Assembly: GCA_012516015.1 (NCBI GenBank)
Contig: JAAYXG010000385.1
Span: 1-13,299 of the forward strand
Direction: 5' to 3'
Origin: Lysobacteraceae bacterium
GTDB taxonomy: Bacteria > Pseudomonadota > Gammaproteobacteria > Steroidobacterales > Steroidobacteraceae
Length of the DNA stretch: 13,299 nucleotides
Positions 65 through 13,299 of the stretch are shown here, one piece after another (within the stretch, counting starts at the first letter, position 1; each line of letters starts with the position of its first letter). The translations under genes were made by a program, and so were the position numbers. Below the pieces are notes generated by a model. That model saw only the letters and a program-made list of their open reading frames with translations, made no database searches and was not told where the DNA came from.

Positions 65-610
65 TTGGCGCTCGTGGAAGGTCTCGAAATAAACGTCGTT
101 CCGAGCAAAGCGCTTGCCGCCGCGGCTCGCGAATCATTGCTCGACCTGTGCTCGCAGGCATACCAAGAAGATTTCACCGCTTATCTACAGCTCCTCTCGC
201 CGGCAGTGCACGTGTGCGGATGGCTCGATGAGTCGCTCGTGAGCCACGCCGCCTGGGTCGATCGATTGCTGTACGTCGACGACACTACGGTTCTGAAGAC
301 TGCTTACATCGAGGCGGTTGCGACGCACCCGGACCATCAACGGCGTGGCTTCGCGTCTGCTGTGTTGTCCAGCATTCCGCCGCTACTCGACGAGTACGAT
401 CTCGCGGCGCTCGCCCCTACCGATGCGAGCTACTATCGTCGGCTCGGCTGGGAGTTGTGGGAAGGGCCGCTCTCGTACCTCGATCCGTCCGGCGTCGACA
501 TGCCAACGCCGGAGGAACAGGTCATGATCTACAGACTGCCGCGTACGCCGGCATCGCTGAGCTTGCGCGCGAAGCTGACGACGCGATGGCGCCCGATCGA
601 GGTCTGGTGA
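65..610 (+). CDS. GNAT-family N-acetyltransferase, AAC(2')-I-like
   Basis: Probable acetyl-CoA-dependent N-acetyltransferase of 181 aa. The acetyl-CoA-binding motif A is visible at residues 84-98: AVAT, then Q92-R-R-G-F-A97 matching the Q/R-x-x-G-x-G/A signature. Before it is a YIEAVA strand, and after it an RLGWELWEGP segment near 126-135. The layout, a TP(E/D)E segment near 148-151 and a C-terminus ending RWRPIEVW recall aminoglycoside 2'-N-acetyltransferases, which also end in a W-R-x-x-x-V-W motif. Substrate specificity cannot be read from the sequence, so a small-molecule acetyltransferase is the safer statement. The start is uncertain: TTG at 65 and GTG at 74 are possible, neither has a clear Shine-Dalgarno, and the frame is open to the left window edge. 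Its last 82 bp overlap, tail to tail, the 3' end of the opposing VWA gene. Confidence 0.78.
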   Translation: MALVEGLEINVVPSKALAAAARESLLDLCSQAYQEDFTAYLQLLSPAVHVCGWLDESLVSHAAWVDRLLYVDDTTVLKTAYIEAVATHPDHQRRGFASAVLSSIPPLLDEYDLAALAPTDASYYRRLGWELWEGPLSYLDPSGVDMPTPEEQVMIYRLPRTPASLSLRAKLTTRWRPIEVW

Positions 611-1536
611 GCGCGGTGACGAGCGATACGCAGGGATGCGGGCCAAAAGCGGATTGCGAGGAGTAAGAGCGCAAGCGTGCTCGGGAGCCATGACACATCC
701 GTCGGTACCGGCGCGCGCCGTGCGAGACGCGCATCCCTCAGCGCAGTGTCGAGCGCTTCGACCCCGTCGAGTCGTCGATATTGGAAACCCACTTGGCTCG
801 CCAGAGCACGCAAGTGCGCCTCATGCACTGCGGATAGATGCTCGCTGCTTGCAATCGGCTCCTCACCGGGCGCGCTCGCGCGTTGAATGACCTGATCGGC
901 GCGCCAGTAGCCGAGCGGGTTGCCTTCTGCATCGGTTCTCGGAATCGGTCTCGGCGTATCGCCGCCGACGCCGAAGATCCAACCGCGAATCGTGCCGACC
1001 GTGAGATCGTCGAAGATCGCGACCGCCTGTCGCGTCGAGTCGAGCGGGGGCGCTTCGTGCCCGTCGGTGAGAAAGACGACGTTCGTCTTCGTGCCGAGAT
1101 CGCGCGCGGCGCGCATCGCCCAGAAAACGCCCTTTGTAATTTCGCTCGCGTTACCCCAGCGCATGCGGCCGTCGATCTGATCGAGCGACGCGAGCAAGTC
1201 GCTGTAGTTGCTGCACACTTCGACCGGCGCGAGCAGCACGATGGTGCGATATTCCGCGAAGGCGCCCCAGCCGACTCTCGAACCGCACGGCAAATTGCGC
1301 AGCGCGGCGTGCATGCTGTGCTTCGCGTAGGCGAGCCTGCTCGCGGGATTCCCATCGATCTCGTAATCCGTCACGTTCATGCTTTGGGTGAGATCGAAGA
1401 CAACGAGATGGTCGTATGTGTCGCGCGGCAGGGTGATCGGCGGCAGCAAGAGCGCGGCTGCCAGTAGGAGGAGCGCCGCGCCGATCGAGACGGTCCCAGA
1501 CTCCCAGAGCGATGCGAGTATACGAACGAGCTTCAA
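529..1536 (-). CDS. mxaL: MxaL-like membrane-anchored VWA-domain protein
   Basis: Protein of 335 aa with one TM helix near the N-terminus (about 17-33), a von Willebrand A domain (about 42-265) and a second TM helix (about 283-301) followed by an Arg/His-rich tail. The positive-inside rule puts the VWA domain in the periplasm. The MIDAS motif is D48-x-T50-x-S52, with Thr for the first Ser of the usual DxSxS; a TDG (157-159) supplies the later metal-site Asp. The only two cysteines, C84 and C108, both lie in the VWA domain and could form a disulfide. It is last in a MoxR-DUF58-A-VWA-TPR-VWA operon, the position of mxaL in methanol dehydrogenase clusters, where MxaA/K/L are known to be needed for Ca2+ insertion. 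The start is TTG, overlapping the upstream stop as TTGA, with GGAG 5 nt before it. A Bat-type VWA protein is the alternative. Confidence 0.75.
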   Translation of the reverse strand: MKLVRILASLWESGTVSIGAALLLLAAALLLPPITLPRDTYDHLVVFDLTQSMNVTDYEIDGNPASRLAYAKHSMHAALRNLPCGSRVGWGAFAEYRTIVLLAPVEVCSNYSDLLASLDQIDGRMRWGNASEITKGVFWAMRAARDLGTKTNVVFLTDGHEAPPLDSTRQAVAIFDDLTVGTIRGWIFGVGGDTPRPIPRTDAEGNPLGYWRADQVIQRASAPGEEPIASSEHLSAVHEAHLRALASQVGFQYRRLDGVEALDTALRDARLARRAPVPTDVSWLPSTLALLLLAIRFWPASLRIARHRAHQTSIGRHRVVSFARKLSDAGVRGSL

Positions 1537-2072
1537 GGCAGCTCCATCCGCGATTGCGGGATCGTCGATGTCGTACGCTCGCTATCGGGTCGGAGATCGT
1601 CTCCTGTCCAGGACATCGACTCGAGCTCAGGTGCAAGCCGCAGTGCGAGCTCGAGGTTGTAGCGTGCATCCCACTCCGAGGGGCGCTCACGCAAGAGAGT
1701 GCGATAACTTTGTTTCGCGAGCTCGATCATCGGTAGCCAGCGAGCGGAATCCGCAGCGCCATACTTCATTGCCTCGCGCATGTGGACATTGCCGAGATTG
1801 AACTGAGCCGCATGCTTGATCTCGCCGCGCTCGGATTGGGTGAGCGCTTTGTACGCTTGGGCGGCGGCTTCGTATTCGCCGGCATTTGCGAGCGCGGCGG
1901 CGTGCGCGAAACGCGCCTCCGGAATCGAAGGATTCAGATCGCCGCTTTGTGCACTCGCTATGGCTTCGTTCACGCGATGAGCATGCCGTAGCTTCACTGT
2001 CTGATGCGCGGATGCGGCCGCGAGAACTGCGACGGTGAGTGCGAACGCGGTATGAACGTGCTTGCGCTTCAC
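1533..2072 (-). CDS. mxaK: MxaK-like TPR protein with N-terminal membrane anchor
   Basis: Small protein of 179 aa. It starts at a GTG that overlaps the preceding stop codon (GTGA), which gives a basic N-terminus VKRKHVH, one hydrophobic helix (about 9-21) and then a soluble helical region. Residues about 52-145 look like degenerate TPR helices: an A-rich pair around ARFAHAAALANAGEYEAAAQAY (about 53-74), then FNLGN (91-95) and ARYNLELAL (136-144), the NLE/NLG type common in BatC/MxaK-like TPRs. The likely role is a periplasmic scaffold for the neighbouring VWA proteins, inferred from operon position between the MxaC-like and MxaL-like genes. The sequence itself is not strongly diagnostic, so the MxaK name rests mostly on context. 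Confidence 0.7.
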   Translation of the reverse strand: MKRKHVHTAFALTVAVLAAASAHQTVKLRHAHRVNEAIASAQSGDLNPSIPEARFAHAAALANAGEYEAAAQAYKALTQSERGEIKHAAQFNLGNVHMREAMKYGAADSARWLPMIELAKQSYRTLLRERPSEWDARYNLELALRLAPELESMSWTGDDLRPDSERTTSTIPQSRMELP

Positions 2073-3082
2073 GTCCAGCTCCGGAGTTGCAGCACGCGAT
2101 AGACGAGCAGCATGAAGCAGGAGAACGCGGCGACGCCGAGGAAGTAGGGCGCATAGTCGCGGCGAGGAATGTGCTCGACGTAGTCGAGCGGTAAGTTCTG
2201 CTGCTTGCCCACGTCCGCGACCGCGCGCGCGAGGTCTTCCTCCACCTCCGCTTGATAGGCGCGATAGGGCGTGCGCAGTGTCTGAAAGAACCGATGCAAT
2301 GCGATCTCGGGTGCGATCTCCGTGCGTGGATCCTCGATATCGAGCGCCGGACTGTTGATCGACCGCAGGTATAGCCAGTAGAGCGCAATGCGGTTGCGCG
2401 CCAAGCCCGCGGCGATGCGATTGCGAGTGCGTGCGTTCAGATGAGCGCCGCCGTCCGAGACCAGCAGAATGATGCGGCTCCCCGAGTATGGACGGTCGTC
2501 GAACGCCTCGATGGCGGTGAGCAACGCACGCCCGACGTTCGTCTCGTTCAGCCCGACGCCGATTCCCGCGGCCGTAATGCCCGCCTGCAGCACGACATCG
2601 CGCTGCGTAAAGGGCACTGCGAGCAAGGGTCCGCCGCTGAAGAACATCAGCGAGAACCGATCGTCGGAGCGCTCCGCGATGAACTGCGACAACAAATCGC
2701 GTGCGGTCTTGCTCTTCTGCGGGCCGCGGTGCCATGCCTGCTGTGTGCGAATGATCGGATCGATCGTCCGCCAATCGCTCGGCATCATCCGCAAGTCCAT
2801 GCTGCGGCTCCGATCCATGAGCACCATGATCTCGGCGCCTTGTCCCGTGCGAAGCACTTGACTCTCGGGCCGGCCGGGCCCTGCGAGCGCGACGATGATG
2901 CTCGCCATCGCGGTAACGGCGAATGCCTTGCCGAACGCTGCCGCGAGCTGGCCTGCTCGGTCGCGCGGAAGCCAGAATAAGGAGGAGTAGGCGAGCGTAT
3001 CCTTGCGGCCGCGAAGCAAAGGAAGCAGCGCAAGCGGGAGCAGCAGCAGAACCCACGAATGTGCGAATTCGATGTTGCTCAT
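2069..3082 (-). CDS. mxaC: MxaC/BatA-like three-TM VWA-domain protein
   Basis: Protein of 337 aa with two N-terminal TM helices (about 9-23 and 51-68), a von Willebrand A domain (about 82-295) and a C-terminal TM helix (about 311-331). RGRK after the first helix and a short basic tail fit cytoplasmic loops with the VWA domain in the periplasm. The MIDAS is canonical: D90-R-S92-R-S94, T181 in LNETNVGRALL, and D210-G211 in LLVSDGG. This is the BatA/MxaC architecture. Its position after the MxaA-like and before the TPR gene matches mxaC. The ATG at 3082 overlaps the upstream stop as ATGA. The frame stays open far upstream, but the longer starts would run inside the MxaA-like gene and lack a hydrophobic N-terminus, so the overlapping ATG is preferred. 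Confidence 0.8.
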   Translation of the reverse strand: MSNIEFAHSWVLLLLPLALLPLLRGRKDTLAYSSLFWLPRDRAGQLAAAFGKAFAVTAMASIIVALAGPGRPESQVLRTGQGAEIMVLMDRSRSMDLRMMPSDWRTIDPIIRTQQAWHRGPQKSKTARDLLSQFIAERSDDRFSLMFFSGGPLLAVPFTQRDVVLQAGITAAGIGVGLNETNVGRALLTAIEAFDDRPYSGSRIILLVSDGGAHLNARTRNRIAAGLARNRIALYWLYLRSINSPALDIEDPRTEIAPEIALHRFFQTLRTPYRAYQAEVEEDLARAVADVGKQQNLPLDYVEHIPRRDYAPYFLGVAAFSCFMLLVYRVLQLRSWT

Positions 3083-3984
3083 CGTTCGTGCCGCCTTTCG
3101 AGTCGTCGCAGATCGCGACAAAGCTCGCGCACCGAGAGCGCGCCGTCCGGTAGGCCGGCTCCGAAGAAAAGCGCGCTCGATTGGGCGTAGAACTGCTCGA
3201 TGCGGGTACGCAGGGGCGAGAAGTGCGGGGCCGCTTGGAAGAGCGCGGCAAGCGTACCGCGTTGCACGACACGCCCCGCCGTGCGATCGAAGGCGCGATG
3301 CACGGCCTGCCACGCTTCCGGCGCATGTTCATCGAGCATGTGCAATTCCACCCAAGCGCGAGCGAACGGCAGCTCTCTGCGCGCGAGCCAGTTGCGCCAG
3401 CCGATCCAGGTGAGCCAAGCCGCAAGCGCAGCAGCGCACGCGCCGCCCAAGGCGATTGCTCGACGCCAGATGGGTCGCGTCGGTACGAGCGGGCTTGCAC
3501 GGTCCGCGCGCAGCGCCTGCGCGACATTGATAGAGGCAGTCGGGTCCGTCAGCGGCGCTACTTCGATCGCTTGCGCCGGTACGAAGAGCGCGTGCTCGCC
3601 GACAACGTCTCTGATCTCCAAGCTCGGCAGCTCGATCGTCATCACTCCGCGCGGTGCGTTGACGATCTGATACTCGAGCACCAACCAACGCTTGCCATCC
3701 TCGTCCGCCGTTTCGATTCTCGGATCCCGCCGCTCGAACCAAACGCCGACGCGTTCGGCGCGAGGAAGCGCCGGTGCGAACTCGCGGCCCGCGGCTTCCA
3801 GCAGCACTCGTTGCGTCAAGACATCGCCGATGAAGTAGCCGAACGGTCGCGGTTGCTGGACTGTCGCCTCGACGGAGTGCTGTAGCGAAACGGCATCGGG
3901 CGCGGTCTGCTCGCTCGCCGCCGCTGCAAGGGTCATCCACGCATATGCGATGGTGATTTGCAGAAAAGCGGAGCGCATCGCCAT
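3079..3984 (-). CDS. mxaA: MxaA-like membrane protein
   Basis: Protein of 301 aa. An N-terminal hydrophobic stretch (about 7-23) is followed by a predicted periplasmic domain (about 24-172), a TM helix (about 176-195) and a positively charged, presumably cytoplasmic C-terminal domain (about 198-301). The periplasmic part has PRPFGYFIGDVLTQRVLL (45-62) and a TIELPSLEIRD strand (116-126), which resemble the MxaA/BatD type of beta-rich domain. In methylotrophs MxaA is required for calcium incorporation into methanol dehydrogenase; here that role is inferred from position between the DUF58 and VWA genes. The chosen ATG shares one base with the upstream stop (TGATG). A second in-frame ATG two codons later (3978) is equally possible. 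Confidence in the family name is moderate. Confidence 0.72.
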   Translation of the reverse strand: MAMRSAFLQITIAYAWMTLAAAASEQTAPDAVSLQHSVEATVQQPRPFGYFIGDVLTQRVLLEAAGREFAPALPRAERVGVWFERRDPRIETADEDGKRWLVLEYQIVNAPRGVMTIELPSLEIRDVVGEHALFVPAQAIEVAPLTDPTASINVAQALRADRASPLVPTRPIWRRAIALGGACAAALAAWLTWIGWRNWLARRELPFARAWVELHMLDEHAPEAWQAVHRAFDRTAGRVVQRGTLAALFQAAPHFSPLRTRIEQFYAQSSALFFGAGLPDGALSVRELCRDLRRLERRHER

Positions 3985-4835
3985 CACACGACTTCGAAGA
4001 AGTAACGCGACATGGCGTCGGCGTCGAAGCGGCCGTCTTCGACGAAGAAGGGCCGAATCGAACGCGCGCCGAAGTAGCCCTCGATTTCGGCGCGACGCAT
4101 CTCCACGGCCGAGCGCCAGCGCGCACGAAGGGAAGGGCGCAGCCATAGCGTTCGCCGAGAGCCGGACTCGACGTCCTCGAGCGGCGCGATCGCATTGCGC
4201 GTCGGCGGTTCGGTTTCGGCCGCATCCCAAATCACGATCGGCACGACGTCGGCATGCGCAAGGAAATCCAGTGCCAAAGTGAGCTGCGGGAGGGGAAAAT
4301 GGAAATCGGACACCAGGAACACGAGTCCCTGGCGCGCGACGCGGGCGGCCACTTGCTCGAGGCCGGCCACGCCTGCACGAGTGGTCTCGAGCGTGCGCAA
4401 TTTCTCCGCCGCGACACTGCTCGCGCCCCGGCTCAAGCGCGCGGGCGCATAAAGATCCGTCCGTTCCTCGGAATCGAACGCGAGCATGCCGAACAGATCG
4501 CCCATGCGAAATGCGCTGAACCCCAGCGCTTCGACGAAGTCGGCGGCGATGTGCAGCTTGCTGCGCGGAGCGCCGAAGCTCATGGACGCCGAGACGTCGA
4601 CGAGCGCGTGCAGCGCGATGCCGGCGCGTTGGCGACTGACGCGCACGAGCCATTCGTCTCGATTCGATCGCAAGCTCGCGCGCACGTCCAGCCGGCGCGG
4701 GTCGGGACGATCGAACAAGCTCACGTGCGCGGCGAACTCGAGGCCCGTGCCGAGACTCGTGCCTGCGTGAGCGCCGGGCCGATGACCGCCGACGCGCCGA
4801 GACAATCGATAGTGGAATTCCTGCTGCGCGCTCAT
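3984..4835 (-). CDS. mxaS: DUF58-family protein with VWA-like MIDAS (MxaS-like)
   Basis: Soluble protein of 283 aa with no TM segment, so probably cytoplasmic. It has the DUF58 hallmarks: an N-terminal G-x-H-x-G-x-x-L-G-x-G-x-E-F block (22-34), then DPRRLDVRASLR (45-56), then a MIDAS-like LVDVSASM with D80-x-S82-x-S84, and VSDFH at 175-179. DUF58 proteins are standard partners of MoxR ATPases; in mxa clusters this position is mxaS. The start used is the ATG at 4835, which overlaps the moxR stop as ATGA. The frame is open about 165 bp further upstream, but that part encodes an Arg/Ser-rich stretch antiparallel to nothing conserved and lies inside moxR. Stop codon and next ATG share one base. 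Confidence 0.85.
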   Translation of the reverse strand: MSAQQEFHYRLSRRVGGHRPGAHAGTSLGTGLEFAAHVSLFDRPDPRRLDVRASLRSNRDEWLVRVSRQRAGIALHALVDVSASMSFGAPRSKLHIAADFVEALGFSAFRMGDLFGMLAFDSEERTDLYAPARLSRGASSVAAEKLRTLETTRAGVAGLEQVAARVARQGLVFLVSDFHFPLPQLTLALDFLAHADVVPIVIWDAAETEPPTRNAIAPLEDVESGSRRTLWLRPSLRARWRSAVEMRRAEIEGYFGARSIRPFFVEDGRFDADAMSRYFFEVV

Positions 4836-5860
4836 GATCGCGGCGTCGGAACCTTGTCGAGAATCTCGGCAACGAGCGCGTCCGCGATCTGGGCTCGCCT
4901 CAGCTCGTATACCGGCGTGAAGAAGATGCGATGGCCGAGGACGGCGGGAACGACTGCGCGGATATCGTCCGGCACGAGGTGAGCTCGTCCATCGAGCCAT
5001 GCGACGACGCGGGCGGCGCGAGTCAGCGCCATCATCCCGCGCGGGCTCGCGCCGGCGAGGATGAGCTTGTCCATATCCACGCCATCCAAACGAATGTCGA
5101 AACGCTTCGGCGATTGCGTCGCCGTCCAGAGGTCCATGACGTAGCGTTCGAGCGCTTCGCTTGCCGTGACGCTTCGTTGAATTGCCGCGCCGATCTCATT
5201 GAGCTCTCGCCACGGCAGAATCGCGGGCGTGACCTTCTCGAGCAGCGCGTCCACGTCGTGAAACTCGGGATGAAAGACGAGCGATCGGCGGATCGTCTCG
5301 TCGGTGGGCGTCGGCATGCGCAACTCGAACATGAAGCGATCGCGCGCCGCGGAGGCGAGCTCGAACGTCTCTTCCCTCTCGACGCGATTGCGGTCCGCGA
5401 ACACGAGCATATAAGGAAAGCGGTACTCGCGGTTGAACGCGGACACCGAGCGCTCCGCCATCGCGCGCAGCATCAGCGATTGCACTTGAGGCCGTGCGCG
5501 ATTGATCTCGTTGAAGAAGAACGTCGTGAGCTGTTCGCCGTGACGCAGCAGGGGCCCAGGCTCGATTCGCGGCTTGCCGTCAGCGTCGACATACGTGTGA
5601 TAGATCAGGTCGCCGGGCATGAGGTCGATCGTGCCTTCGATGCGCTCGAAGGCGCCGCCGATCGCTCGCGCGAACGCGCGCAGAATCGTCGTCTTGCCGA
5701 CGCCGACGTCGCCTTCCAGAAGCACGTGACCGCGAGCGAACAGCGCGACGTTGATGAGCCGGATCGTGTCTCGTTGTCCGACGATCGCATTTCCGACGGA
5801 TGCTTCCACTCGCAACGCGCGCTCGCGCCACTCGTTCAAATGCTCTCGATCATCCGCCAT
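4832..5860 (-). CDS. moxR: MoxR-family AAA+ ATPase
   Basis: AAA+ ATPase of 342 aa, full length for the MoxR family and predicted cytoplasmic. Visible motifs: VGQ near 27-29, Walker A G50-D-V-G-V-G-K-T57, MoxR-typical IEGTIDLMPGDL (74-85), Walker B TFFFNE (113-118) where most MoxR proteins have DE, sensor 1 in FADRN (154-158) where most have ATQNP, an arginine region ARDRF (172-176), and sensor 2 in ASPRGMMAL (271-279). The FFNE/FADRN variant is what I recall for the MoxR-proper (MxaR) subgroup, but I cannot verify that here. It is first in the six-gene operon. The ATG at 5860 is preceded by GAGGGG at a normal distance, and a candidate promoter lies about 70-100 bp upstream. The downstream gene overlaps by 4 nt. 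Confidence 0.92.
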   Translation of the reverse strand: MADDREHLNEWRERALRVEASVGNAIVGQRDTIRLINVALFARGHVLLEGDVGVGKTTILRAFARAIGGAFERIEGTIDLMPGDLIYHTYVDADGKPRIEPGPLLRHGEQLTTFFFNEINRARPQVQSLMLRAMAERSVSAFNREYRFPYMLVFADRNRVEREETFELASAARDRFMFELRMPTPTDETIRRSLVFHPEFHDVDALLEKVTPAILPWRELNEIGAAIQRSVTASEALERYVMDLWTATQSPKRFDIRLDGVDMDKLILAGASPRGMMALTRAARVVAWLDGRAHLVPDDIRAVVPAVLGHRIFFTPVYELRRAQIADALVAEILDKVPTPRS

Positions 5861-6283: not shown

Positions 6284-7345
6284 TCAACGCATGGCGATGT
6301 CGACGCGTCGCGCTTCGTCGTCCGTCCCGGTTCCGGTCAAACGCGCCGGCGGGTCCATGACGATCTGCGACTCGTCGACGCCTTCGGCGAGGAGTGCATC
6401 GCGCACGGCGGCGGCCCGGTTCTTGGCGATTGTCTCGTTTTGTGACGGGTCGCCGCTGCGATCGGTGTAGCCCGTGATCCTGATCGAGCGGCCGGCGCGC
6501 TTGGCCGCTTCCGCGACACTCGCGATCTTCACGCGATCGCCGTCATCGATGGTGGCCTCCCCGGAGCCGAAATAGACGCGTGCCGACTCGGCGCCCGTCG
6601 TTACTTGCGCGCTGCTCTCGAGGTTCGCCGTGTCATCCGGTCGATTGAATATGAGCAGCAGTGCAAGCGCTGCAACGCCGGCGGCAGCGGCCCATGGCAG
6701 CCACGACCGACGACTTTCGCGCTCGTGTCTGCGCTCGGGTAGGACCCGCTCCGGCTGAGACGGTTCGCCTGGCGCAGGCACCTCTTTCAGCAGGCTCGAG
6801 AGATTGCTGAATCCCAGCGCACTCGTGATTCGGTTGTCGAGTCCCGTGCGCTCGAGCGCGCCGCGCTGCGAGAACAAGAGCGACGCGAGACCGGACGAAT
6901 TGAGACCGGAGGTCGACACGTGCTTGCGCAGGATGCCGAGCATGATCGGCAGCGCAAACGACATCAGGGACGATGCGGAGCTTGCCCGCACGCCAGTGAC
7001 CTGCGAGATCGCGCTACTGAGCGCGCCGGTGCGATTTCCGAACAGAGAGCCGAGAAGCGATGCGCCGACGCTCTGCATCGAATCGATGGCGCCGCGGTTT
7101 CCGAGGATCCCGCCGAGCTTGCTGACGATTCCGCCATCGAGCCGCTCGTCATTGACCGCGCTGTAGATGTCCTCCACGCCGGACGGGTTCGCGGCGCGAT
7201 GCATCAATCCGGCAAGAAGACTCGGTCCCGTCGTGCGCAGCGCCGCGCGAGTGCTGTCTTCGTTCTCGCCGAAGAGCGAGCTGAGCTGTCGTACGACGGG
7301 CGTGCCGAGCGCGGCATTGAGTGACTCGAGTATGTCGATCCTCAT
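6284..7345 (-). CDS. DUF937 - transmembrane - OmpA-domain protein
   Basis: Protein of 353 aa in three parts. Residues 1-185 are a Gly/Ser/Leu-rich DUF937 (YidB-like) region with repeated short motifs such as LGGILGN, LLGSLFGN and LASLLF. Residues 216-234 are a TM helix (WLPWAAAAGVAALALLLIF) preceded by an Arg-rich stretch (205-214). Residues 254-353 are an OmpA C-terminal domain with GYTDRSGD (292-299), AKNRAAAVRDAL (308-319) and RRVDIAMR at the end, the peptidoglycan-binding fold. The charge pattern places DUF937 in the cytoplasm and OmpA in the periplasm. Start ATG 7345 has AAGGAGG a few bases upstream and is chosen over an open extension of 27 residues. It is a single gene with its own promoter candidate. 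The role of DUF937 is unknown; the OmpA part suggests cell-wall anchoring. Confidence 0.88.
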   Translation of the reverse strand: MRIDILESLNAALGTPVVRQLSSLFGENEDSTRAALRTTGPSLLAGLMHRAANPSGVEDIYSAVNDERLDGGIVSKLGGILGNRGAIDSMQSVGASLLGSLFGNRTGALSSAISQVTGVRASSASSLMSFALPIMLGILRKHVSTSGLNSSGLASLLFSQRGALERTGLDNRITSALGFSNLSSLLKEVPAPGEPSQPERVLPERRHERESRRSWLPWAAAAGVAALALLLIFNRPDDTANLESSAQVTTGAESARVYFGSGEATIDDGDRVKIASVAEAAKRAGRSIRITGYTDRSGDPSQNETIAKNRAAAVRDALLAEGVDESQIVMDPPARLTGTGTDDEARRVDIAMR

Positions 7346-7424
7346 GGGGCCTCCTTGCGGAGCACGTGCTGCTGCAAACCTGTGGCAGGCAGGCTGGAAC
7401 CGCAAACGTGGTGAAGTGAGCGGC

Positions 7425-7452
7425 ATTCTCGATCGGCTACAGCGTGCGTCAA
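7425..7452 (-). promoter_or_regulatory. Candidate promoter for the DUF937-OmpA gene
   Basis: Minus strand: -35 TTGACG (7447-7452, 5 of 6), 16-bp spacer, -10 GAGAAT (7425-7430, 4 of 6). The start would be near 7418, giving a leader of about 70 nt. The same -35 hexamer is used in the moxR promoter candidate. The rest of the 274-bp divergent gap (7346-7619) shows only a small GGCGAA/TTCGCC inverted repeat (7478-7494); I see no convincing plus-strand promoter for the methyltransferase. Confidence 0.33.
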
Positions 7453-11022: not shown

Positions 11023-13299
11023 ATGACAATAGCCGATAGCAGCCCGTTGGCATTACAACGAGCCGACGCCAGTGTGCGCCGCAACGCAAAGAGAGCGCTG
11101 TTTACGATCGTCGGCGGTGCAGTCCTCATCGGTCCGGCGCTTGCGCAAGAGCCTTCCTATGAGGAGCTCGAGGAAATCGTCGTCACGGGCTTGCGAGGGA
11201 GCTTGCAAGCCTCGATGGATATCAAGCGCGATGCGATCGGCGTCGTCGATGCCATCAGTGCGGAGGACATCGGCAAGTTTCCGGATGCGAACTTGAGCGA
11301 GGCATTGCAGCGCATCACCGGCGTGTCGATCGATCGGCGCAATGGCGAGGGCGCGCTCGTCACCGCGCGCGGCTTCGGCGCGCAGTTCAACATGGTGACG
11401 CTGAATGGCCGGCAGATGCCGACTGCGGATGCGTTCGCGAACGGGCAAGTGATTGCCGGCGGCATCGGGGGCAACTCGCGCGCGTTCAACTTCGCGAATC
11501 TCGCCGCCGAAAGCATCAGCGCGGTCGAGGTCTACAAGACCGGCCGGGCGGAAATTGCGACGGGCGGCATTGGTGCAACGATCAACGTTCGTACGGCCCG
11601 CCCGTTCGACAACGCGGGAACGGTCGCGAATCTCGGTGTCAAAGCCGTGAACGACACGACCAATCGTGTGGGCAACGACGTCACGCCGGAGGTCTCGGGC
11701 ATCTTCAGCTATGCGAACGACGACAAGACGTGGGGCGTCGGGCTCAGTGCGAGCTACCAGGAGCGTCATAGCGGTGCATCGGGCTCGTCCGTGAACGACT
11801 GGCGCATTCAAGCGTGGGATGCGGACATGAGCGTCAACCGGACGCTGGCACCGCTCTACGTCAATCGCAACGATACGCCGTACGACTCTTCGGACGACTT
11901 TCTCGATGCGATGATCGTGAGCGCACCCGCGGTCGGGCAGCTCTACGGAATTCCGAACGACATTCGCTATCACTTCTCCGATCGCAAGCGGGAGCGAACG
12001 AACGCACAGCTCACCGTGCAGTTTGCGCCGAGCGATGCCTTGACGCTCACGACCGATTACACGTATGCCCTCAACGAGCTCGTCGAAGATCGCGGCGATC
12101 AGACGATCTGGCTGCAGCGCAACGGCTTCTATCATCTCGAGTTCGACACGAACGAAGCGGTCGCCACGCCGTTACTGCTGCGGGAGTACACGGGGGCGAG
12201 CAAGGACTTCGGCTACGAGCAACAGCATCGCGAGCAGAAGAACGAGATGAAGTCGCTCGGATTCAACGCCGACTGGCGCGTCACCGATCGCTTCAGCGTT
12301 GCTCTCGACGTGCATGACTCGACGGCCGAGAGCATGCCCAACGATTCGCTCACGGGTGGGGGCGAGACGACATTCAGTGTCGCGGGCAAGGTGCCGAGCG
12401 TGTGCTTGGAGTCGTACGGCCCGAATCCGGGCGGCGGTCAGCCGGCCTGTCGAAACGCGTCGAGCTTCTGGACGCAGGAGTTCAGCTTCAACGAGAGTCT
12501 GCCGATTGCGGGGCGCACCTTCTATCCGACGCAGCTCGATGCGTACGCGGGGACGAACGGCGACTCCAACTACTCGTTCGATGCCTCCAGCATCGGATCG
12601 CAGATCATGCGCATCAACTATCAGGATCAGGCGACCGATCTCATGCAAGCGCGTCTCGACGGCGATCTCGAGTTCGATTTCGGCCGCTTCCAATTCGGTG
12701 TCGAGACCCGCGCGCTCGATATGCGACAGCGAGCCTCCGCGTCGAATCTGACCCTGGGGGACTGGGGTACGAGCGACACCGGGCAGGTACCGGACATGGT
12801 TGCGCTCCTGCGACCCTTCAGCCTGGTTCGCGCGTTCGATGATTTCAACCCGGTCGGCGCGCCGATCGGCGGTTGGAAGGGCAATGCGAACGAGCTTGCA
12901 CGATGGGCTTTCTCGCAAGGGTACGGCGACTGGACCGAGCCCTCGGCGCCCGATGGGCAACTTCGCTACAACCCGGGTTTTACGGTCGACAATTCGGTCC
13001 AAGAGGATACGGAGGCCGCATACGTTCAATTCAGCTGGGGCGGCGATTTGTGGAATCGCACCGCCAATATCGTCGTCGGAGTCCGGTACGAGCAGACGGA
13101 GGTCGAATCGACTGCGCGCATTCTCGTGCCGACCGCGTTGCTGTGGCAGGACGATAACGACTTCCAGGTGCAGCGCCCCCCGCTCCTGCCCGAGAACGTG
13201 CAGGCCGTGAGCGAGACGGCCGACTACGACAACGTGCTGCCGAGCTTCGATTTCGACATCGAAGTCACCGACTCCCTCAAAGCGCGCTTCTCCTACAGC
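11023..13299 (+). CDS. TonB-dependent receptor, Xanthomonas/Caulobacter type (3' end outside window)
   Basis: The first 759 residues of an outer-membrane active transporter; the frame is open to the window edge, so it is partial. A long Sec signal peptide (1-41) has a basic stretch RRNAKR and ends ALA before Q42. A TonB-box-like EEIVVTG (50-56) follows. The plug domain spans about 57-193, with AISAEDIGKFPDANLSEALQRITGVSI, RGFGAQFNMVTLNGRQMPT and VEVYKTGRAEIATGGIGATINVRT, the last typical of this receptor class. Beta-barrel strands follow. C461 and C476 sit in a Gly/Pro-rich segment that looks like an extracellular loop and could be disulfide-bonded. Start ATG 11023 has GGGAGA about 7 nt upstream. 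Such receptors usually import oligosaccharides or other plant-derived compounds, but the substrate is not readable here. The divergent MocR gene may regulate it. Confidence 0.93.
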   Translation, partial: MTIADSSPLALQRADASVRRNAKRALFTIVGGAVLIGPALAQEPSYEELEEIVVTGLRGSLQASMDIKRDAIGVVDAISAEDIGKFPDANLSEALQRITGVSIDRRNGEGALVTARGFGAQFNMVTLNGRQMPTADAFANGQVIAGGIGGNSRAFNFANLAAESISAVEVYKTGRAEIATGGIGATINVRTARPFDNAGTVANLGVKAVNDTTNRVGNDVTPEVSGIFSYANDDKTWGVGLSASYQERHSGASGSSVNDWRIQAWDADMSVNRTLAPLYVNRNDTPYDSSDDFLDAMIVSAPAVGQLYGIPNDIRYHFSDRKRERTNAQLTVQFAPSDALTLTTDYTYALNELVEDRGDQTIWLQRNGFYHLEFDTNEAVATPLLLREYTGASKDFGYEQQHREQKNEMKSLGFNADWRVTDRFSVALDVHDSTAESMPNDSLTGGGETTFSVAGKVPSVCLESYGPNPGGGQPACRNASSFWTQEFSFNESLPIAGRTFYPTQLDAYAGTNGDSNYSFDASSIGSQIMRINYQDQATDLMQARLDGDLEFDFGRFQFGVETRALDMRQRASASNLTLGDWGTSDTGQVPDMVALLRPFSLVRAFDDFNPVGAPIGGWKGNANELARWAFSQGYGDWTEPSAPDGQLRYNPGFTVDNSVQEDTEAAYVQFSWGGDLWNRTANIVVGVRYEQTEVESTARILVPTALLWQDDNDFQVQRPPLLPENVQAVSETADYDNVLPSFDFDIEVTDSLKARFSYS

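Follow-up and report, generated by a model that had tools for sequence, protein, structure and literature searches.

Which protein is served by a set of methanol dehydrogenase maturation genes that stands apart from any methanol dehydrogenase? The question is raised by contig JAAYXG010000385.1 (C295 in our numbering; 13,299 bases) of a Steroidobacter-like metagenome-assembled genome (MAG; 3.62 Mb, 844 contigs, 76% complete, 2.8% contaminated); "the window" hereinafter is this whole contig, and the two end together. On the minus strand at 529-5860 lie six contiguous genes for relatives of MxaR, MxaS, MxaA, MxaC, MxaK and MxaL, in that order, as a sequence-only reading of the window had recognized and as open reading frame (ORF) calls, Pfam matches and homology to Mxa proteins bear out. 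MxaACKL are credited with a calcium role in methanol dehydrogenase (PMC6028718; papers cited here by PMC number are represented by excerpts, to which the statements drawn from them are limited). We consider it probable that the operon belongs to a xox-type branch of the MxaRSACKL machine and that its client is the host's XoxF, a pyrroloquinoline quinone (PQQ) methanol dehydrogenase with a lanthanide-type motif, and not the calcium enzyme MxaFI. Its genes are:

4832..5860, minus strand: R, MxaR-like MoxR AAA+ ATPase, 342 amino acids (aa); AAA_3 and AAA_lid_2 above cut-off, Walker A motif GDVGVGKT, BLAST and tree
3984..4835, minus strand: S, MxaS-like DUF58 protein, 283 aa; DUF58 above cut-off, DVSAS motif
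3079..3984, minus strand: A, MxaA-like membrane protein, 301 aa; profile match to MxaA (probability 100, E 1.5e-47)
2069..3082, minus strand: C, MxaC-like VWA protein, 337 aa; VWA_2 above cut-off, three predicted transmembrane segments, DRSRS motif
1533..2072, minus strand: K, MxaK-like TPR protein, 179 aa; weak TPR_16 below cut-off, profile match to MxaK (probability 99.2)
529..1536, minus strand: L, MxaL-like VWA protein, 335 aa; DLTQSM motif, TTG start as called, VWA below the Pfam cut-off

All six proteins are homologous to their Mxa counterparts by BLAST against eight plasmid-borne mxa loci, and A and K also by profile. R shares 51-62% identity with the MxaR of mxa clusters and S 30-37% with the MxaS of plasmid-borne ones (both by BLAST), while L shares 34-45% over the alignment with MxaL and a Caballeronia L. 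A Pfam scan of the A protein gave no match; its predicted model (mean predicted local distance difference test score, pLDDT, 89.5; predicted template-modelling score, pTM, 0.56) has an N-terminal helix, a beta-rich domain with a beta sandwich, a long helix with a predicted transmembrane segment and a helical C-terminal domain. The three transmembrane segments that the sequence-only reading had given to C are predicted here as well, but of the two it had given to L only one rises above the hydropathy threshold. Motifs resembling the metal ion-dependent adhesion site (MIDAS) occur in 97/106 C, 110/111 L and 92/102 S proteins.

All five gene junctions overlap (ATGA, GTGTGATGG, ATGA, GTGA and TTGA), as in a translationally coupled operon. 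The ratio of nonsynonymous to synonymous substitution rates (dN/dS; NG86, against two relatives) is 0.06-0.39 in all six genes, these being rough values given a dS of 1.1-2.5. A scan of named genomes, from which the 80 loci most like the query were retained, recovered all six genes in 73 of them, in the R-S-A-C-K-L order save for swaps due to overlong ORF starts. This recurrence, together with the dN/dS values, argues that the arrangement is more than chance; judged by its sequence, the operon is intact and under purifying selection.

The mxaFJGIRSACKLD clusters of Methylobacterium, Methylocystis and Paracoccus contain the same six genes in the same order, with comparable sizes and domain make-up; the Mxa proteins of Methylobacterium nodulans match the window's in their Pfam make-up, except that its MxaL passes VWA_2. 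A tblastn search of L against 72,556 plasmid records gave 11 matches, in Methylobacterium, Paracoccus, Caballeronia, Methylocystis and Azospirillum. Five annotated methylotroph plasmid records carry mxaFJGI-RSACKL with a gene for an SRPBCC (MxaD-like) protein, and in an annotated Caballeronia record the six genes stand by themselves. On sequence grounds, then, the operon is a member of the RSACKL family. It differs from the methylotroph clusters in having neither mxaFJGI nor mxaD alongside and in lying on the opposite side of the family tree.

That tree was built from the six concatenated proteins (61 rows, 1611 columns; a quick LG+G4 run without bootstrap and with the root unknown). All 13 mxa-linked rows fall on one side of a branch with an SH-aLRT (approximate likelihood-ratio test) support of 100, and the other side holds 48 rows, 15 xox-linked and 33 orphan, which are intermixed and include the window. 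The window operon thus does not group with the mxa-linked clusters, to which its concatenation is 35-40% identical as against up to 58.5% for xox-linked ones. The 61 rows derive from 104 reduced at 78% identity within label; the concatenation omits eight loci with fewer than four of the six genes (L104, L132, L133, L153, L168, L212, L218 and L222), skips seven loci from genomes already included as named loci, and leaves out the named Methylophilaceae. A tree of MoxR by itself does not resolve the mxa/xox split. Marker residues mostly distinguish the two types: at one site in A, Asn is found in 42/48 xox-type proteins and Tyr in 13/13 of the mxa type.

A candidate client lies elsewhere in the genome. 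The sequence-only reading had described the operon as lacking a methanol dehydrogenase, which is true of the contig and false of the genome. Across the whole of contig C295 there is no PQQ dehydrogenase, and mxaF, J, G, I and D are not adjacent to the operon. Contig C158, however, encodes a TIGR03075 protein (725 bits) with the motif HDEWDYDG, the host XoxF, beside a cytochrome c and a substrate-binding protein that scores above the TIGR03871 cut-off and below that of TIGR03870 (MoxJ), so that xoxF, G and J stand together. The second Asp of this motif is found in lanthanide enzymes, and calcium enzymes have Ala there; the five full MxaF in the loci of the class sample (below) read DEWDYAG. The host XoxF therefore has the lanthanide-type DYD motif. 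The genes pqqB, C, D and E are on contig C368. The best match of an MxaF query in the host genome is XoxF itself, at 51%, though the MAG is incomplete and the absence of MxaF therefore unproven. The prediction that the client is encoded elsewhere thus found support, also in that 11 of 12 related genomes with the operon have both XoxF and PqqC and that kindred operons adjoin xoxF. For the other half of that prediction, repurposing for an unrelated periplasmic protein, nothing was found in its favor.

The xoxF gene is at most 10 kb away in 30 of the 80 named loci (27 complete, three cut at the end of the stretch), and MxaF lies within that distance in 0 of the 80, loci chosen by likeness to the query. 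All 27 complete linked XoxF read DEWDYDG or DEWDFDG. Two further loci (L168, L169) have the operon split across contigs, with the other part near xoxFGJ, and the class sample adds xoxF next to L in three genomes (G143, G266, G368). Three layouts were seen: in Paraburkholderia, Ramlibacter and Variovorax xoxF-G-J precedes RSACKL, in Methyloversatilis and others RSACKL comes first and xoxF follows, and in two genomes of the window's order (G044, G057) the two are divergent. That the linkage recurs in differing layouts favors a functional tie. The xoxF-linked operons of Paraburkholderia, Ramlibacter, Variovorax and Methyloversatilis share the window's branch of the tree; they have xoxF a few kb off, whereas the window's is on another contig.

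Two unnamed families, neither with a Pfam or NCBIfam match, accompany such loci. One is a small protein of 118-128 aa with a CSCVIDRIA-like motif, encoded divergently from the host xoxF (L006/L067:706-1092, minus strand) and at L106:5289-5645 (plus strand); its 40 ORF matches all lie within 6 kb of a xoxF- or mxaF-like ORF, many of the loci having been fetched around xoxF, and it was found in 0 of 17 mxa-linked loci checked. The other, of 225-263 aa, lies downstream of xoxJ (L114:3705-4496 and L106:4587-5264, both plus strand), with 45 of 47 ORF matches within 6 kb of a xoxF- or mxaF-like ORF. A copy of this second family is at the start of the contig bearing the orphan operon of genome G189 (L214), which suggests that this operon may also lie near xoxFGJ.

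Fifty of the named loci are orphan, and leaving out L102 and L105 (genomes G016 and G008) and L154 gives 47 genomes. Here and below, figures for XoxF and MxaF in the named-locus genomes, for TIGR03075 in the relatives, and for L, XoxF and MxaF in the class sample hold among the matches listed, the weak end being left out. XoxF at 67% identity or more, in some cases partial, is present in 44 of the 47. In two genomes (G427, G428) fragments of XoxF lie at the ends of contigs, next to a further copy of RSACKL. In Paraburkholderia ultramafica (G440, L132) neither XoxF nor MxaF was found among the matches listed, and its operon is decayed, with only the later part of K plus L left in a 20.8-kb stretch within a 115-kb contig. 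The orphan RSACKL of Caballeronia sp. Lep1P3 (L076) is on a mobilizable plasmid, p3, with genes for heavy-metal efflux and for arsenic on either side and those for transposase and integrase nearby.

Co-occurrence was computed in two samples. Among 60 relatives (the window genome included), the A protein is present in 12, XoxF at 65% identity or more in 14 and PqqC above cut-off in 14, with all three in 11; for XoxF the top TIGR03075 match per genome was read, plus two beside operons, and fragments may be missed. Operon and XoxF occur together in 11 relatives, the operon alone in 1, XoxF alone in 3 and neither in 45 (Fisher p 1.2e-8); within the genus (14 genomes) the corresponding counts are 8, 1, 1 and 4 (p 0.023). 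The L profile recovers 11 of the 60, the one missed being G005, whose contig stops after C. XoxF is found without the operon in G006, G034 and G058, the last of which encodes, divergently from xoxF, a MoxR piece of 131 residues that is probably a remnant. The association of the operon with XoxF and pqq genes that the sequence-only reading had proposed to look for is hence present in the relatives.

The second sample comprises 369 genomes of the class, drawn regardless of the operon. A clear L match (at least 176 bits; the next genome scores 54) is found in 17, eight of them with mxa neighbors and nine with non-mxa clusters only; in two of the eight (G194, G306) there is an additional RSACKL copy of the non-mxa kind, that of G194 falling on the non-mxa side of the concatenated tree and that of G306 having been dropped as incomplete. 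XoxF at 62% identity or more is present in 31 of the 369, of which 14 are among the 17 genomes with L and 17 among the remaining 352; the non-mxa-only genomes have it in 8/9 cases as against the 17/352 without L (p 1.4e-9). The ninth, G218, has a XoxF relative of 46-48% identity with WDYDE beside G- and J-like genes. A distantly related PQQ methanol dehydrogenase, with PHDAWDYDE and with G/J-like genes beside it, is seen in the loci L223 (G218:C5) and L215 (G218:C1) of this genome, and a second C-like gene comes after its RSACKL cluster. Listed MxaF matches at 68% or more occur in 6 class genomes, all with L.

The best-surviving alternative is that the operon serves the maturation of PQQ alcohol dehydrogenases other than XoxF, or of several (calcium types, for instance), XoxF merely accompanying it through a shared lifestyle. 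The host does encode the start of a second PQQ dehydrogenase (114 codons, cut at the end of contig C523; L007:1378-1719), and seven of nine same-genus genomes with the operon have from at least 14 to at least 29 TIGR03075 matches, the other two having 3-4. Such matches occur, however, in all 60 relatives, 43 of them above cut-off, and the operon in only 12; G002 and G007 have at least 28 and at least 26 but no operon, and G004 and G025 have PqqC without XoxF or the operon. As the physical linkage, too, is to xoxF, we regard this alternative as unlikely.

A vestige of an mxaFJGI-RSACKL cluster since lost, surviving by chance or decaying slowly, would explain a gene order equal to that of mxa clusters with no mxaFJGI nearby. 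Yet all six genes are open and under purifying selection, the operon is on the non-mxa side of the branch with SH-aLRT 100, and just 4 of 50 genomes bearing such operons have a listed MxaF match at 71% or more, making this account very improbable.

That the operon is of the Bat/aerotolerance or another MoxR type with a different periplasmic client is scarcely credible, since it scores a weak 41.9 and 23.0 bits against the Leptospira models of BatA and BatC, far below the cut-offs of 380 and 175, three other host MoxRs (31-34% identical to R) are separated from the Mxa/xox group (support 98/94), and A and K match the MxaA and MxaK profiles. MoxR-DUF58-DUF4381-VWA (Bat-like) operons combine an AAA+ ATPase with DUF58 and VWA/TPR proteins, and the window shares this design; DUF4381 is weakly matched by 7/58 A proteins (best E 2.2e-4), but the affinities of the window's MoxR, A and K are with the Mxa proteins. 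Bat identity was accordingly rejected on the MoxR placement and the A and K profile matches. The outgroup of the MoxR tree consists of the three host MoxRs and one from G257, not of curated Bat proteins, and has long branches. As to the placement among Bat proteins that the sequence-only reading had named as its counter-case, R does not fall with the host's Bat-type MoxRs; for the remaining five proteins the comparison was with Mxa proteins alone.

Several points weigh against XoxF as the client. The window's genome offers no physical linkage, with xoxF on C158 and the operon on C295, and the named-genome scan is not an unbiased sample, so that missing mxaF is partly expected there. The co-occurrence statistics take no account of kinship. 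G005 has R, S, A and C up to the contig end, yet XoxF and PqqC were not found in it. Of the 31 class genomes with XoxF, 17 have no L match at all, and XoxF can therefore work without RSACKL. In the XoxF tree the window's protein belongs to a clade of 28 rows, of which 26 come from operon genomes, and another clade of 17 rows has 13 from genomes without it, but the tree mixes class genomes with genomes chosen for the operon, so that these counts are not frequencies, and its operon-bearing label includes G086, G179 and G198, whose sole cluster is of the mxa type. A comparison of residues between the two branches showed none obviously suited to lanthanide over calcium. From the literature, a review states that XoxF does not require mxaACKLD and mxaRSEH (PMC11845868); an M. 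extorquens table, its heading outside the excerpt, gives -4.3 to -7.0 for mxaR to mxaL and +4.4 for xoxF (PMC6414531); and MxaR and MxaS of Methylocella (PMC9291206) and several Mxa proteins of M. trichosporium (PMC12482762) drop with La.

Orphan operons alongside XoxF have been reported before. The Methylophilaceae core genome includes XoxFJG, PQQ genes and MxaRSACKL, plus two accessory copies in the two strains that lack mxaFJGI (PMC4109929), and some Sphaerotilus genomes carry the mxa accessory genes in part but no MxaFI (PMC13300288). Like the window, these Methylophilaceae have the operon and its client at separate places, in a genome that has XoxF and PQQ genes but lacks MxaFI; the window, by contrast, represents Steroidobacter and relatives and adds xoxF linkage and a separate clade (compared with the excerpts of PMC4109929). 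We found no report of a separate xox-linked RSACKL clade in the literature searched, which mostly excludes subscription papers and is represented by excerpts.

The operon is flanked, as the sequence-only reading had noted, by genes for an acetyltransferase and a DUF937-OmpA protein:

65-610, plus strand: GNAT gene
6284-7426, minus strand: DUF937-OmpA gene

The GNAT gene and the L gene (529-1536, minus strand) converge with an 82-base overlap as called. An open frame at 11023-13299 (plus strand) runs past the contig end, and its translation reads, by eye, like a TonB-dependent receptor.

Despite the points against it, we hold that the XoxF of C158 is quite probably the client of the operon. The MoxR ATPase R and the DUF58 protein S would act in the cytoplasm and the membrane protein A would convey this action to the other side; the predicted topology would place A, C, K and L at or beyond the membrane. 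There the anchored VWA proteins C and L, together with the TPR protein K, might use MIDAS-type metal sites to aid the placement of metal, and perhaps also of PQQ, in the exported XoxF. The calcium role credited to MxaACKL leads us, by analogy, to suggest tentatively that the actual step could be lanthanide insertion. XoxF4 and XoxF5 are inactive when obtained from E. coli but can be obtained in native hosts (PMC6028718).

These observations hint that XoxF has an assembly machine of its own in many bacteria. Speculatively, Beta- and Gammaproteobacteria may have a dedicated AAA+/VWA lanthanide insertase for XoxF, an RSACKL branch apart from the calcium-loading mxa type, mobile in the genome and decaying where XoxF is lost. 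If so, the opinion that XoxF can dispense with a machine of this kind would apply just to those lineages in which it has been tested to date. The xox-type MoxR/VWA branch thus offers a six-gene candidate for the metal loading of XoxF, with marker residues and named isolates.

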